Shown here piece by piece: positions 21,518 to 31,056 of a stretch of 64,000 nucleotides of DNA (its first letter is position 1; each line of letters starts with the position of its first letter). Under the pieces are notes generated by a model. That model saw only the letters and a list, made by a program, of their open reading frames with translations. It was not told the origin of the DNA and ran no database searches. A program made the translations under genes and the position numbers. Source of the DNA: Bacteroidota bacterium (lineage in GTDB: Bacteria; Bacteroidota; Bacteroidia; Flavobacteriales_D; Crocinitomicaceae). The DNA lies in contig JACPUU010000001.1 in the NCBI GenBank assembly GCA_016192075.1, positions 62,001 to 126,000 on the forward strand, in the 5' to 3' direction.

Positions 21518-22633
21518 TTAACCGGCAACAGCAGGTTGGCCCAATACTTTCAGCATGCGTGTGTGGTTGGCCAGCGCCCTGAAAAACGACGGTTCTGAAT
21601 TATAGGTAACACCAAATTCACGCGCAGTCTGTTTTACAATAGCTGAAATTTTGCGGTAGTGTACATGGCATATATTTGGGAACAGGTGATGCTCAACCTG
21701 GTAATTCAACCCACCCACAAACCAATTCAAAACACGGTTTTTAGGTGCAAAGTTTCCGGTTGTTTCAAGTTGGTGAACCGTCCAGTTATTTGCCATGTTC
21801 ATATTCTGATCAGCAACCGGGAAATTGGTTTCAGGGATTACGTGTGCCAGCTGAAATACGGTAGACAGAATAATACCAGCCGTAAAATGCATCAGAAACA
21901 ACATCAGTACCAACTGCCACCAGGCAAGGTCCATAAAAATCAGAGGCAGCACAATAATAAAGCCATAGTAAAGCATTTTATCCAAAATCAGTTCCCAGAT
22001 CAGGGGTGCAAATTTTTTATTCTGGGTTTCTGTCAGTCCTTGTTTTTTATAACGGGCAATCTGAACAAAGTCTTTACCGGTGCTCCATGAAATGGTAAGT
22101 AACCCGTAAAAGAACCAGGCATACAAATACTGAAAGCGATGCGCTTTTTTCAGTTCACAGTTTGGCGAAAATCGTAAAAGCCCGCCTGGTGCTGAAATGT
22201 CTTCATCGTGTCCCTGAATATTTGTGTAGGAGTGGTGAAGAATGTTGTGCTGAATTTTCCAGTTGGCAGCAAAGCCGCCGACCAGTATAATTACTTTACC
22301 AATGATTTTATTGATGGTGTCATTTTTTGAGTAGGCGCCGTGGTTTGCATCGTGCATAACGCCCATGCCTATGCCGGCCATACCAATGCCCATTACCACC
22401 CAGCAAAGGGCAATAAGCCAGCCGTTGGTAATAATGCCGGTAAGCATCAGAATAAAAGGGACAAGGTAAATAGCAAGCATTGAAACGGTTTTAACAACCA
22501 TTTCTCCGTTGGCATATTTGGAAATGTTATTTTCTTTAAAGTAGTCGCGTACACGTTTTTTTAAAGTCCGGTCAAAATCAATGTGAGAAGTTTGCGAAAA
22601 TTTAGGGCTGCTAAGCCCGGTATGGTTTGTCAT
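21518..22633 (-). CDS. membrane fatty acid desaturase (acyl-CoA/acyl-lipid type), copy 1
   Basis: 371 aa. The three histidine boxes of di-iron membrane desaturases are present: HDANHGAYS, HNILHHSYTN (HxxHH) and QVEHHLFPNICHVHY. The glutamine-headed third box is typical of front-end/delta-6-type desaturases; no cytochrome b5 domain is fused, so electrons must come from a ferredoxin or separate protein. It is the downstream member of a tandem pair and starts 41 bp after copy 2. Position of the double bond cannot be predicted from this. Confidence 0.92.
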   Translation of the reverse strand: MTNHTGLSSPKFSQTSHIDFDRTLKKRVRDYFKENNISKYANGEMVVKTVSMLAIYLVPFILMLTGIITNGWLIALCWVVMGIGMAGIGMGVMHDANHGAYSKNDTINKIIGKVIILVGGFAANWKIQHNILHHSYTNIQGHDEDISAPGGLLRFSPNCELKKAHRFQYLYAWFFYGLLTISWSTGKDFVQIARYKKQGLTETQNKKFAPLIWELILDKMLYYGFIIVLPLIFMDLAWWQLVLMLFLMHFTAGIILSTVFQLAHVIPETNFPVADQNMNMANNWTVHQLETTGNFAPKNRVLNWFVGGLNYQVEHHLFPNICHVHYRKISAIVKQTAREFGVTYNSEPSFFRALANHTRMLKVLGQPAVAG

Positions 22634-22674: not shown

Positions 22675-23784
22675 TCAGGCTGCCTGGCCTAATTTTTTGA
22701 GCATGCGCACGTGATTACCCAGGGCGCTTACAAAGGTTGGTTCTGAGTAGTATGGAATGCCAAATTCCTGGGCGGTTTGTTTCACTATTTTGCTCAGTGC
22801 CTTATAGTGAACATGGCATACATTCGGAAAAAGGTGGTGTTCAACCTGGTAGTTCAACCCACCAACGAACCAATAAAAAAAGCGACTTTTTGGTGCAAAG
22901 TTGCTGGTTGTCTGAAGCTGGTGAATGGCCCAGTTGTTTTCAATAGAACTATTAGAGTCCTGCACCGGAAAATCAGTTTCGTTTACAACATGCGCCGGCT
23001 GGAATATGGCTGCCAGAATAATGCCGGCAATAAAATGCATCAGAATAATGCCCAGTGGAATTGCCCACCATGCTATATCCATCACCAGTATTGGAATAAC
23101 CAGTATATAGAGGTAATAAACAATTTTGGTCAGAATCAGTTCGGTCAGCAGGCGTCCGAATTTTTCATTTTCTGTTTTGGTCAATCCCAGTTTTTTGTAA
23201 CGGAATAACTGTGAAAAATCTTTGTTTGTAATCCACGAAAGTGTCATCAACCCATAAAAAAACCAGGCGTAAATGAACTGAAAGCGCTGAATTTTGCGGT
23301 ATTTGTCTTTCGGTGAAAAACGAAGCAGCGAAATTGGGGGAGATACATCTTCATCATACCCCAGAATGTTGGTGTAGGAATGGTGTAAGACATTGTGTTG
23401 AATGTTCCAGGTAGGTGCAAAGCCACCCACTACATTCAGAACCCGGCCAATCCAGAAATTTACTTTTTCATTTTTTGAATAAGCTCCGTGATTGGCATCG
23501 TGCATAATTGATAAACCAATGCCGGCTATTCCAATACCCATTATTGCCCAGCAAAGTACAATAAGCCATGGGTTGGTTATTACACCAAACACCATTAGAA
23601 AATAGGGTGTAAAGTAGAGTGATACCATAAAAATGGTTTTTAAGACCATATTGGCATTGGCAAAGCGTGAAATGTTGTTGTCTTTGAAGTAGTCCCTGAC
23701 TCGCTTTTTCAGGGTTCCATTAAAATCAGCTCCTATTTTCTGCGAAAAACGGATTGGTTTTAATTCCTCGGTGATTGTACTCAT
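22675..23784 (-). CDS. membrane fatty acid desaturase, copy 2
   Basis: 369 aa from ATG 23784. Histidine boxes HDANHGAYS, HNVLHHSYTN and QVEHHLFPNVCHVHY nearly equal those of copy 1. The two proteins align over their full length (DFNGTLKKRVRDYFKDNNISRFAN against DFDRTLKKRVRDYFKENNISKYAN), so they arose by tandem duplication. A -7 element at 23808-23815 lies between the two possible ATGs (23820 and 23784) and supports the shorter start. It is first in the two-gene unit, so the promoter serves both. Confidence 0.92.
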   Translation of the reverse strand: MSTITEELKPIRFSQKIGADFNGTLKKRVRDYFKDNNISRFANANMVLKTIFMVSLYFTPYFLMVFGVITNPWLIVLCWAIMGIGIAGIGLSIMHDANHGAYSKNEKVNFWIGRVLNVVGGFAPTWNIQHNVLHHSYTNILGYDEDVSPPISLLRFSPKDKYRKIQRFQFIYAWFFYGLMTLSWITNKDFSQLFRYKKLGLTKTENEKFGRLLTELILTKIVYYLYILVIPILVMDIAWWAIPLGIILMHFIAGIILAAIFQPAHVVNETDFPVQDSNSSIENNWAIHQLQTTSNFAPKSRFFYWFVGGLNYQVEHHLFPNVCHVHYKALSKIVKQTAQEFGIPYYSEPTFVSALGNHVRMLKKLGQAA

Positions 23785-23807
23785 GGTTTTAGTTTCTGCG
23801 GTATTAA

Positions 23808-23815
23808 CAAATTTA
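23808..23815 (-). promoter_or_regulatory. -7 promoter element of the desaturase pair (TAAATTTG)
   Basis: Minus-strand TAAATTTG matches TAnnTTTG, 23 bp upstream of ATG 23784. No -33 TTG at the expected distance. Confidence 0.55.
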
Positions 23816-23885
23816 AGCATTTAATCGGTTAATAGGAGCGGTTTAGTCGCTTTTTGCCCCTTCAGGGGTGTGAAATACCATAAAT

Positions 23886-26233: not shown

Positions 26234-27880
<1,647 letters not shown>

Positions 27881-27942: not shown

Positions 27943-28803
27943 ATGAAAGGATATGAACAGAAGGATTCGCATGCTGACAAGCCGCGTTTTTTATACTCAC
28001 CTTTTCGTATCTTTGATTTAAAGCAGGTGATTTTGTCATTCCATACGGATTTTCCGGTTTACTTTCAGTTTGGTGCTGTAAGTCTTTATTTGCATACTAT
28101 CCTGGAATCTCTGTCTTTCCTGATAGGTTTCAGGTATTATGTCTGGCTGCGTAAACAAACGCCAGACCAGATTCCGGCCATTAACCGGATCTTTATCTTA
28201 GTTGGTGCAACCGCAGGGGCTCTGATTTTTTCAAGGCTGGTGGGTGCAATGGAGGCACCGTCACGTTTTTTTTCGGGGGATGAGGCATTGGGCTATTATT
28301 TTGTTCATAAGACTATTGTCGGCGGTCTTTTGGGTGGTCTTATAGGCGTTGAACTGGTTAAGAAAATGATTGGTGAAAATTCTTCTTCAGGAGATTTGTT
28401 TACCTATCCAATTATATTGGCACTTATTATTGGCAGAACCGGATGTTTTTCCATGGGAATTTATGAGGCAACCTTTGGTTCAGTCACGCAAAGTTGGGCC
28501 GGGATGGATTTGGGAGATGGCCTGCAAAGGCACCCCATCATGATTTATGAAATGGTCTTTCTGCTGCTGCTATGGCTTGGTATAAGATTCATGGAGGGCA
28601 GCGTTCTTTTGGAACCAGGAGCCCGATTTAAATTTTTTATGGTAGCATTTCTGGCATTTCGTTTTTGTATTGAATTTATAAAACCCGGCGAACGCATTTG
28701 GGCTTTCACGGTTATACAGCTTTGTTGCGCTGCCGGACTCCTATACTACTATAAAGTTTGGACAAAACCAGGAAAATTGATACTGCATGAGAAAAGTAAG
28801 TAA
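27943..28803 (+). CDS. Lgt-family (prolipoprotein diacylglyceryl transferase-like) membrane enzyme, divergent
   Basis: 286 aa with about seven membrane helices. Recognised by IVGGLLGGLIGVELVKK, GRTGCFSMG, RHPIMIYE (family RHPTQLYE) and RFCIEFIKPGER (family RxxxExxR). Lgt moves diacylglycerol from phosphatidylglycerol to a lipoprotein Cys. Two points differ from standard Lgt: the His of the usual HGGLLGG motif is Val here (TIVGGLLGG; the nearest His is three residues before), and the GRxGNFxNxE signature reads GRTGCFSMGIY. A different acceptor or a changed reaction is possible. Its 3' end overlaps the radical SAM gene by 17 bp, so the two are translationally coupled. Confidence 0.85.
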   Translation: MKGYEQKDSHADKPRFLYSPFRIFDLKQVILSFHTDFPVYFQFGAVSLYLHTILESLSFLIGFRYYVWLRKQTPDQIPAINRIFILVGATAGALIFSRLVGAMEAPSRFFSGDEALGYYFVHKTIVGGLLGGLIGVELVKKMIGENSSSGDLFTYPIILALIIGRTGCFSMGIYEATFGSVTQSWAGMDLGDGLQRHPIMIYEMVFLLLLWLGIRFMEGSVLLEPGARFKFFMVAFLAFRFCIEFIKPGERIWAFTVIQLCCAAGLLYYYKVWTKPGKLILHEKSK

Positions 28804-30142
28804 GTATATCTATTACGATCATACAATAAGTCTTTGTAACGTTTGCCGGAAGAAAGTGGATGCTAAAATTATTTTTGAAGGCAACAACGTGTATATGACC
28901 AAGAGTTGCAATGAGCATGGAAGACAAAAGGTGTTGATTTCAAACGACATAGAGTTTTATAAAAGGAAACGCAATTATAACAAACCGTCCGATTATCCGC
29001 TGGCCTTTAATACAAAAACGGAACGCGGTTGTCCGGATGACTGCGGTTTGTGCCCTGATCATGAGCAGCACTCCTGTCTAACTTTGATTGAAGTAACGGA
29101 CCGCTGTAATCTGGCTTGTCCTACCTGTTATGCAAGCTCAGCCCCCAATTATGGGAGGCATCGCACGCTGGAAGAAATTGACCGGATGCTTGACATTATT
29201 GTCAGAAATGAAGGAGAACCCGACGTTGTTCAGATAAGCGGCGGTGAACCAACCATACATCCTCAGTTTTTTGAAATACTGGATCTGGCTAAAACAAAGC
29301 CAATCCGTCATTTGATGGTAAATACAAACGGGATACGGATAGCAAAGGACAAGGAATTTGTGAAACGCCTGGCAGGTTACATGCCAGATTTTGAAATCTA
29401 TTTGCAGTTTGATAGTTTTGACCGGGGTGTTTTAGCTGATATGCGTGGAGAAGATCTTCTGGAGACCAGACAGCAGGCTATTGCTAATCTGAATGAGGTA
29501 AATCTTTCGACAACGCTGGTTGTTACTCTTCAGCGTGGTAAAAATGAGCATGAAATTGGCGAAATTATCCGGTATGGGGCAGCACAAAAATGTGTGCGGG
29601 GTGTTACGCTGCAGGCCACCCAGTATGCCGGAAGGAATGAACACTATAATCCTGACACCGGAAAACTTTCGATTGATGAAATCAGGAAATTAATCCTTGA
29701 GCAAACATCCGTTTTTAATGAAAACGATCTTATACCTGTTCCATGCAATCCGGATGCACTCACAATGGGGTACGCACTTAAACAAGGTAATGAGCTAGTA
29801 CCATTAACCCGGTTTATTGATCCCGAAATGTTATTGGAGAATACAACCAACACCATTGTTTTTGAATCTGATGAAAATCTGAAAGAGAATATTTTTAAGA
29901 TATTCAGTACCGGAACATCTGTTGAAAGGGCCGGAGAGGTACTTAATGAAATTATGTGCTGTCTACCTAAAATTGACGCGCCAAACATGACCTATTCAGA
30001 TTTATTCAGGATTATTTTAATTAACTTTCAGGATGCCTATGATTTTGACATCAGATCTATTAAAAAATCCTGTGTACATATTGTTCACAAGGATGGGCGT
30101 ATTATACCGTTTGAAACAATGAATATGTTTTACAGAAACTGA
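28787..30142 (+). CDS. radical SAM protein of the tetraether-synthase (Tes/MJ0619)-like family
   Basis: 451 aa. Cysteine layout: C17-x2-C20 with C41-x2-H44 (N-terminal metal knuckle, rubredoxin-like in Tes), C82-x3-C86-x2-C89 with C97 (auxiliary cluster), then the radical SAM motif C107-x3-C111-x2-C114 (DRCNLACPTCY). SGGEPTIHPQF and LMVNTNGIRIA follow. The C-terminus VHKDGRIIPFETMNMFYRN also fits the family. Archaeal Tes joins lipid alkyl chains by C-C bonds; bacterial relatives are linked to membrane-spanning lipids. The overlap with an Lgt-like lipid transferase supports a lipid substrate. The reaction here is unproven; a protein- or cofactor-modifying role remains possible. Confidence 0.85.
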   Translation: MRKVSKYIYYDHTISLCNVCRKKVDAKIIFEGNNVYMTKSCNEHGRQKVLISNDIEFYKRKRNYNKPSDYPLAFNTKTERGCPDDCGLCPDHEQHSCLTLIEVTDRCNLACPTCYASSAPNYGRHRTLEEIDRMLDIIVRNEGEPDVVQISGGEPTIHPQFFEILDLAKTKPIRHLMVNTNGIRIAKDKEFVKRLAGYMPDFEIYLQFDSFDRGVLADMRGEDLLETRQQAIANLNEVNLSTTLVVTLQRGKNEHEIGEIIRYGAAQKCVRGVTLQATQYAGRNEHYNPDTGKLSIDEIRKLILEQTSVFNENDLIPVPCNPDALTMGYALKQGNELVPLTRFIDPEMLLENTTNTIVFESDENLKENIFKIFSTGTSVERAGEVLNEIMCCLPKIDAPNMTYSDLFRIILINFQDAYDFDIRSIKKSCVHIVHKDGRIIPFETMNMFYRN

Positions 30143-30150
30143 AAATAAGG

Positions 30151-30459
30151 ATGGAAAATGTAGATACAGATCAGGAAAATGGAGGCCGTAAAGAGTCAAA
30201 AGTGACCAGGAACATACTTCTTTCAATTGTAGGAATTTTGGCTGTGTGTGTTCTGACTTTTTTTGTTATTGGTGAATCCGTTTCGGGTCACTATGCATAC
30301 CTGGGAGCGCTTATTATTTCAATATGGTTGTTCCCCGTCTTGTTTATTATAATGGGTGTTATATATCTGATTTTGAAAATGAAAAAAGAAGGCGGGATCA
30401 TGCTTATTATAGGAGGAAGCTTATTGCTTTTTGGCTTTATTACATGTGGGCGCCTTTAG
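30151..30459 (+). CDS. small three-helix membrane protein downstream of the radical SAM gene
   Basis: 102 aa. A charged N-terminus of about 20 residues, then three helices (about 22-42, 48-72, 80-98) with a short KMKKEGG loop. No family recognised. It starts 8 bp after the radical SAM stop, so it belongs to the same operon and may anchor or assist the enzyme. Confidence 0.75.
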   Translation: MENVDTDQENGGRKESKVTRNILLSIVGILAVCVLTFFVIGESVSGHYAYLGALIISIWLFPVLFIIMGVIYLILKMKKEGGIMLIIGGSLLLFGFITCGRL

Positions 30460-30501: not shown

Positions 30502-31056
30502 TCAATCCATCTTCTCTTTAGCCTCATCCCAAAATGACCGCGGCGCATAAATCGGAACACCGGCTTTCAGGGCCAGGTTTATACTGTCACTCGGGCGCGC
30601 ATCCAGTCTAAGAATGGTACCGTGATCATCAATAACCAGCACGGCATAATAGACACCATCTTCCAGTTTAGTGATAATGATGTGCTGCAGGGTCAGGCTG
30701 CTTTCTGTAAAAATGGTATTCATCAGATCGTATGTAAGCGGCCTGTTTGATTCAAACTCATTCATGGCGCGCACCATGGCAGTTGCTTCACATTCACCAA
30801 TGACCATGATTAAACACCATTTATTGTCTGAATCTTTTTCTACCAGGCGCACCAGCGCCGACATGTCGGCCTCATAAATTCCTTCAACTTCCAGTTCAAT
30901 CAAATCGTCACTGATGTCTTCTTTCAGGGTGTCGGTATCAATTCGCTGACCGTTGGCATTTTGCTGAGGCGGGGTTTCATGTGATTGTGCACAGGTAAAC
31001 AACGGATTTGTAAGATAAAGGGTAAACACAGCCGGGAGAAGCAGGAAGTTTTTCAT
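30502..31056 (-). CDS. secreted bifunctional-nuclease (BFN/DUF151) domain protein
   Basis: 184 aa. A hydrophobic signal sequence (1-23, MKNFLLLPAVFTLYLTNPLFTC) precedes a BFN domain (about 55-178) with the family motifs VIGECEATAMVRAMN, RPLTYDLMN, LEDGVYYAVLVI and DARPSDSINLALKAGVPIYAP. BFN domains are usually cytosolic; the signal, or a lipoprotein reading with Cys22, puts this one in the envelope. Nuclease activity is inferred from the family name only. It converges with the Lgt-like operon. Confidence 0.85.
   Translation of the reverse strand: MKNFLLLPAVFTLYLTNPLFTCAQSHETPPQQNANGQRIDTDTLKEDISDDLIELEVEGIYEADMSALVRLVEKDSDNKWCLIMVIGECEATAMVRAMNEFESNRPLTYDLMNTIFTESSLTLQHIIITKLEDGVYYAVLVIDDHGTILRLDARPSDSINLALKAGVPIYAPRSFWDEAKEKMD

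Follow-up and report, generated by a model that had tools for sequence, protein, structure and literature searches.

A cassette of three genes at positions 27943-30459 of the window, the 64,000-nucleotide stretch of DNA analysed here, looks like an undescribed lipid-modification system. The genome, of ~4.65 Mb, belongs to the phylum Bacteroidota, and the cassette encodes an Lgt-like membrane enzyme, a radical SAM enzyme related to Tes and TrsS, and a small membrane protein. Tes (GDGT-MAS, MJ0619) is the tetraether lipid synthase with which archaea couple lipid tails by joining two sp3 carbons, and TrsS is a radical SAM (seleno)protein. Lgt, the prolipoprotein diacylglyceryl transferase, gives proteins a lipid anchor by moving diacylglycerol from phosphatidylglycerol to a lipobox Cys. 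We infer that the three genes make an unusual lipid or attach one, for which a coupling of chains would be an analogy with Tes. The cassette is found in at least two bacterial phyla, and over two phyla both enzymes would form one module with a small protein bearing a single conserved cysteine. Bacterial Tes homologs have been reported since 2022 with no function assigned (PMC8941075, PMC9433317). A literature search confined to abstracts and term counts found no paper tying Tes-like enzymes to Lgt.

Organization of the three-gene unit

The cassette and its two borders consist of the following genes:

26234-27856, - strand: pyrG, divergent, one border of the unit
27943..28803, + strand: Lgt-like membrane enzyme, a second Lgt in this genome, 286 aa; PF01790, 54 bits
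28787..30142, + strand: radical SAM enzyme of the Tes/TrsS superfamily, 451 aa; 17-bp overlap with the Lgt-like ORF
30151..30459, + strand: small three-helix membrane protein, 102 aa; starts 8 bp past the radical SAM ORF
30502-31056, - strand: BFN-domain (bifunctional-nuclease) gene, convergent, other border of the unit

The unit is closed, with the divergent pyrG on one side and the convergent BFN-domain gene on the other. The coordinates of the three ORFs, the 17-bp overlap and the 8-bp gap given in the initial annotation are all correct, and only the start of the Lgt-like gene is amended. Members of the Lgt-like family begin near residue 30 of the window ORF, and residues 1-30 are poorly folded in the predicted structure (pLDDT 51-59); the true start of this gene is therefore probably the TTG at 28033 or the GTG at 28027. 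No RNA element was found in the cassette region. About 4 kb from the cassette lie two similar tandem desaturase-like genes with His-box motifs (21518-22633 and 22675-23820, - strand).

The radical SAM enzyme is a variant of the Tes/TrsS superfamily

In Pfam, the radical SAM protein reaches 98 bits for Radical_SAM and, with a cut-off of 27, 64 bits for Zn_ribbon_HMPTM (PF23545). Its best NCBIfam match is TrsS (NF045646), with 316 bits over residues 12-447 and a cut-off of 490 that is passed by none of the 296 Bacteroidota genomes. The Tes profile (NF045702) scores 273 bits, below its cut-off of 450. Membership in either family was thus rejected on the curated cut-offs. By sequence, residues 12-450 match the Tes structure 7TOL with an E-value of 1.2e-65. 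The predicted structure (pLDDT 75, with residues 349-397 modelled poorly) matches 7TOM with an E-value of 2.8e-36 and a TM-score of 0.80, and the next fold, SkfB, follows at 1.4e-9. An identity as peptide maturase or MoaA-like protein was also rejected, the next-best profiles and folds being far weaker than those of Tes and TrsS. By sequence as by fold, the protein clusters with Tes and TrsS and not with the peptide or cofactor maturases that the initial annotation had named as the contrary outcome.

Four metal-site regions can be recognized in the protein:

28835..28918, + strand: rubredoxin-type site C17-x2-C20-x20-C41-x2-H44, invariant in 51 family members
29030..29077, + strand: N-terminal auxiliary cluster motif C82-x3-C86-x2-C89...C97, invariant in 51 members
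29105..29128, + strand: radical SAM core C107-x3-C111-x2-C114, invariant in 51 members
29744..30073, + strand: remodelled C-terminal auxiliary cluster region C320, C391, C392, C429, invariant in the family

The cysteine plan described in the initial annotation is therefore real, and it is invariant in the 51 family members. The rubredoxin-type site has the same spacing as that of Tes (C9-x2-C12-x20-C33-x2-H36), and C73, C77 and C80 of Tes correspond to the first three cysteines of the N-terminal auxiliary motif (PMC9433317). In contrast, three of the four C-terminal cluster cysteines of Tes are replaced in the window protein (A324, S428 and E443), and only C429 is kept. C320 is also present in most non-Tes relatives. 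At least 90% of the family keep Met at the position of the labile Met439 of Tes, where the window protein has Ile412, and the conserved Tyr459 of Tes corresponds to Ile432; Met439 and Tyr459 are dispensable for Tes activity. In Tes, the C-terminal [Fe4S4] cluster region flanks the pair of lipid pockets and holds the substrate-sulfur intermediate, and phospholipid chains are bound in the active site (PMC9433317). Of the original description as Tes-like, the architecture and the fold stand; the score below the Tes cut-off, the closer match to TrsS and the rebuilt C-terminal cluster site do not agree with it. By the tests run, the enzyme is a variant of the Tes/TrsS superfamily and a member of neither family.

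In a phylogenetic tree, the window protein clusters with Lewinellaceae. One branch (support 93/83) parts the radical SAM enzymes associated with Lgt-like genes from Tes and from the relatives associated with methyltransferases, a branching that is provisional because of long branches. A protein from another genome of the phylum (L115, G122:C91:56878-58290) scores 494 bits, above the Tes cut-off of 450, and served as a positive control; it may be a true Tes in a bacterium or lie on a contaminant contig.

The Lgt-like protein differs from canonical Lgt

The Lgt-like protein matches the Pfam family LGT (PF01790) with 54 bits for a cut-off of 24.9. Its AlphaFold model has a pLDDT of 88 and, at E<1e-3, a single PDB match, namely E. 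coli Lgt (5AZB, E-value 8.7e-7). A canonical Lgt (210 bits versus 54) and LspA are encoded elsewhere in the genome, which indicates that the role of housekeeping lipoprotein enzyme does not fall to the Lgt-like protein. The essential residues of E. coli Lgt include Y26, H103, R143, N146 and R239, among which R143 and R239 bind phospholipid (PMC4728403; PMC13251419). Two of these positions are marked in the window:

28093..28095, + strand: His51 codon, aligned with Tyr26, which is essential in E. coli Lgt; His51 is invariant in 62 members
28435..28446, + strand: R165-x-G-C168, the R143 equivalent followed by Cys at the essential Asn146 position, invariant in 62 members (all GRxGC)

The fold, the equivalents of R143, R239 and D129, and the RHPxxLYE motif are kept from canonical Lgt (5AZB/5AZC). 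On the other hand, an alignment with the canonical Lgts of the phylum shows Y26 replaced by His, N146 replaced by Cys and H103 absent. As Y, W or F occupies this last position in some Lgts, the loss of H103 does not decide the matter by itself. Moreover, 17 Lgt-like proteins stand apart from 10 canonical Lgts in the tree, with a support of 100/99. The changed residues and the separate clade rule out a canonical Lgt. Thus, the assignment to Lgt made at the outset survives for the PF01790 match and the fold, and fails at three essential residues that are changed or absent. By the tests run, the protein is a variant of Lgt and not a member.

A small membrane protein with a single conserved cysteine

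The small protein family has no significant match in Pfam or NCBIfam. In 74 of the 81 loci with enough sequence, the radical SAM gene is directly followed by a small ORF whose end is hydrophobic. A cysteine falls within the last 17 residues in 72 of these 74 unfiltered downstream ORFs; the share in shuffled Cys-bearing sequences is 31%. The alignment of the small proteins, whose rows were pre-picked for a Cys near the end, has a mean column identity of 22% and a single invariant column, the cysteine:

30445..30447, + strand: Cys99 codon, in the context G-F-I-T-C-G-R-L; no other residue is invariant across the aligned small proteins

The motif around this near-invariant residue is [GS][LF][GS]xC, and 3-12 residues follow it in all small proteins except one. 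The prediction of a three-helix membrane protein is in agreement with hydropathy and charge pattern. In 76 of 82 small proteins, the stretch preceding the last helix is more positively charged than the one following it, and the cysteine is therefore predicted at the outer (periplasmic) face. This cysteine, absent from the initial annotation, is the best clue to the substrate, and the small protein is possibly an acceptor or a partner in lipid modification.

Conservation of the unit within and beyond the Bacteroidota

Eighty close loci, found by scanning a single genome from each species, and three from relatives gave a set of 83 other Bacteroidota loci. In 78 of the 83, the Lgt-like gene precedes the radical SAM gene in the same orientation, and in 69 of these 78 the two overlap or lie at most 84 bp apart. 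The Lgt-like gene is missing from five loci, one of which (L081) is truncated by the contig end, and the small-protein gene is missing from a few. Each of four flanking positions is occupied by 26-33 different gene families (71 loci), indicating that the surroundings vary. Two variants of the layout were seen: in L158 (5706-8084, genome G070), the small-protein gene separates the Lgt-like gene from the radical SAM gene instead of lying downstream of both, and L081 (1707-2280) carries a tandem of two different small Cys-ending membrane proteins past the radical SAM gene.

Full-length relatives of the radical SAM enzyme (at least 190 bits) are encoded by 26 of the 296 Bacteroidota genomes, and Lgt-like proteins also by 26. 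Both are present in 25 genomes, each alone in one and neither in 269 (Fisher p ~5e-34, a value that counts related genomes as independent, which descent makes untrue). The only genome having the radical SAM enzyme without an Lgt-like protein is G122, whose enzyme is the L115 protein above the Tes cut-off. The only Lgt-like protein without a radical SAM enzyme in its genome is that of G075 (L156, 5653-6498), which belongs to the same clade. In G092 and G328, both enzymes are encoded on separate contigs.

The joint conservation of the three genes, on which the first description had staked its proposal, holds well past close relatives. An Lgt-like gene, two small proteins and a radical SAM gene follow one another on plasmids of Mycobacterium branderi and M. 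avium. Nonomuraea and the deep Bacteroidota genome G152 have an Lgt-like gene, a small Cys-membrane protein and a Tes-like radical SAM gene, G152 being counted as Lgt-like at a 67-bit threshold chosen after its cassette was seen. The radical SAM enzymes of these plasmids, of Nonomuraea and of G152 are only ~28-30% identical to the window protein. The actinobacterial small proteins have a like ending (GGLCTG, GVCTG, GICTG). Two more deep genomes (L149 and L150) combine a radical SAM gene, an ICMT/phospholipid-methyltransferase-type gene, an Lgt-like gene and a small Cys membrane protein, with a DUF4395 gene between the ICMT and Lgt-like genes in one of them (G212, L150). An extra short membrane protein past the radical SAM gene, with the motif DPLRLCVYxTVALLAW, is common to Nonomuraea and G152 (L148 7281-7712; L139 near 1046-1514, - strand).

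Proposed mechanism and alternatives

We tentatively favour, at somewhat less than an even chance, a reading in which the three genes constitute one membrane lipid-modification module and the Lgt-like enzyme puts lipid on the cysteine of the small protein. The radical SAM enzyme would act on lipid chains, and the Lgt-like enzyme would handle the head side of the lipid used by the radical SAM enzyme. The two kept arginines of the Lgt-like enzyme would hold the phospholipid head, and the phospholipid, or its diacylglyceryl part, would be moved to the small-protein cysteine, which would serve as acceptor or as an essential contact. The product would be an uncleaved, lipid-bearing small membrane protein.

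Several findings speak for a single module: the conserved order and strand amid varying flanking families, the co-occurrence that includes the unlinked genes of G092 and G328, and the actinobacterial and G152 sets. The Tes fold, the Lgt fold and the single invariant cysteine with its outer-face charge pattern point the same way, as do the ICMT/phospholipid-methyltransferase-type gene added in two deep variants and the phospholipid chains bound in the active site of Tes (PMC9433317). Against it stand the altered Tes site for the substrate-cluster intermediate (the C-terminal cysteines, and Ile412 in the window protein), a small-protein motif that departs from the canonical lipobox (only 10 of 82 match), the five loci without an Lgt-like gene and the few without a small protein. 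Transfer of diacylglyceryl to cysteine is possibly precluded, because essential residues of E. coli Lgt are absent. The Lgt family acts at the periplasmic face, and the two enzymes would be expected to work from opposite sides of the membrane, which is the weak point of the module reading. A hypothetical lipid spanning or crossing the membrane would reconcile the two faces.

A free lipid route, possible but on the unlikely side, would have the radical SAM enzyme act like Tes and couple or modify the tails of ordinary membrane lipids, with the Lgt-like protein altering head groups or presenting lipids and the small protein serving as a scaffold and not as the acceptor. It accords with the Tes architecture over the full length and with the kept equivalents of the phospholipid-binding R143 and R239 (PMC4728403; PMC13251419). 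However, it leaves the single conserved cysteine of the small protein unexplained, and the C-terminal cluster ligands are unlike those of Tes.

The top NCBIfam match (TrsS, 316 bits), together with the methyltransferase genes that adjoin other relatives in place of Lgt, could instead point to a TrsS-like system acting on a non-lipid substrate, perhaps with a redox or metal function. We consider this improbable, since the score falls short of the 490 bits required for TrsS, the partner belongs to a phospholipid-binding family, and the Lgt-associated forms are split from the methyltransferase-associated ones and Tes (93/83).

It is quite improbable that the radical SAM enzyme links the small-protein cysteine to another residue, in a thioether-like manner, and that the Lgt-like protein deals with the resulting product within the membrane. 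The Tes match is full-length and much stronger than that to SkfB (2.8e-36 versus 1.4e-9), no second conserved residue of the small protein offers itself as link partner, and the cysteine is predicted at the outer face. This reading is favoured by the position of SkfB as next fold after Tes and by the adjacency of the radical SAM gene to a small gene with one invariant C-terminal cysteine. Finally, that the Lgt-like protein is a weak spare lipoprotein transferase with an incidental radical SAM linkage agrees with the low Lgt activity presumed for second homologs carrying Y26H and N146C (PMC13251419), and is very improbable given the strict co-occurrence, also where the genes are unlinked, and a clade separate from canonical Lgt at 100/99.

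The module reading has a more specific form, which we regard as unlikely: the Tes-type radical SAM enzyme would make a tail-modified, perhaps membrane-spanning lipid, and the Lgt paralog, with Cys for Asn146, would attach it to the small-protein cysteine, the protein staying uncleaved. If true, the post-translational modification system would be new, and the second Lgt genes of the Mycobacterium plasmids would be part of it. The locus provides a concrete, testable candidate substrate for both enzymes, in aerobic Bacteroidota that grow easily, and bears on whether bacterial radical chemistry on lipid tails exists beyond the known membrane-spanning lipids.

Comparison with known systems

The window enzyme shares with Tes full-length homology, a like fold and the three N-terminal and core motifs in equal order and spacing. 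Unlike Tes, it is bacterial, and its partners are an Lgt paralog plus a small protein with a Cys. The TrsS-side relatives found adjoin methyltransferase genes, whereas the window enzyme adjoins an Lgt-like gene. The cysteine of the small protein is in a position like that of the lipobox cysteine of a signal peptide, at the predicted outer end of a helix, a topology that fits in 76 of 82 proteins; however, just 10 of the 82 sequences conform to the lipobox consensus [LVI][ASTVI][GAS]C.

The locus joins two loose ends, namely the bacterial Tes homologs with no assigned function and the Y26H/N146C second Lgts dismissed as weak (PMC13251419). The passages of that paper covered here do not tie the second Lgt homologs to a radical SAM gene or a small Cys protein. 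The paper describes M. smegmatis MSMEG_5408, a second Lgt homolog with Y26H and N146C for which low Lgt activity is presumed. The window protein shares both substitutions with homologs of this type, and the Lgt-like members of the Mycobacterium plasmids sit in a cassette like that of the window.
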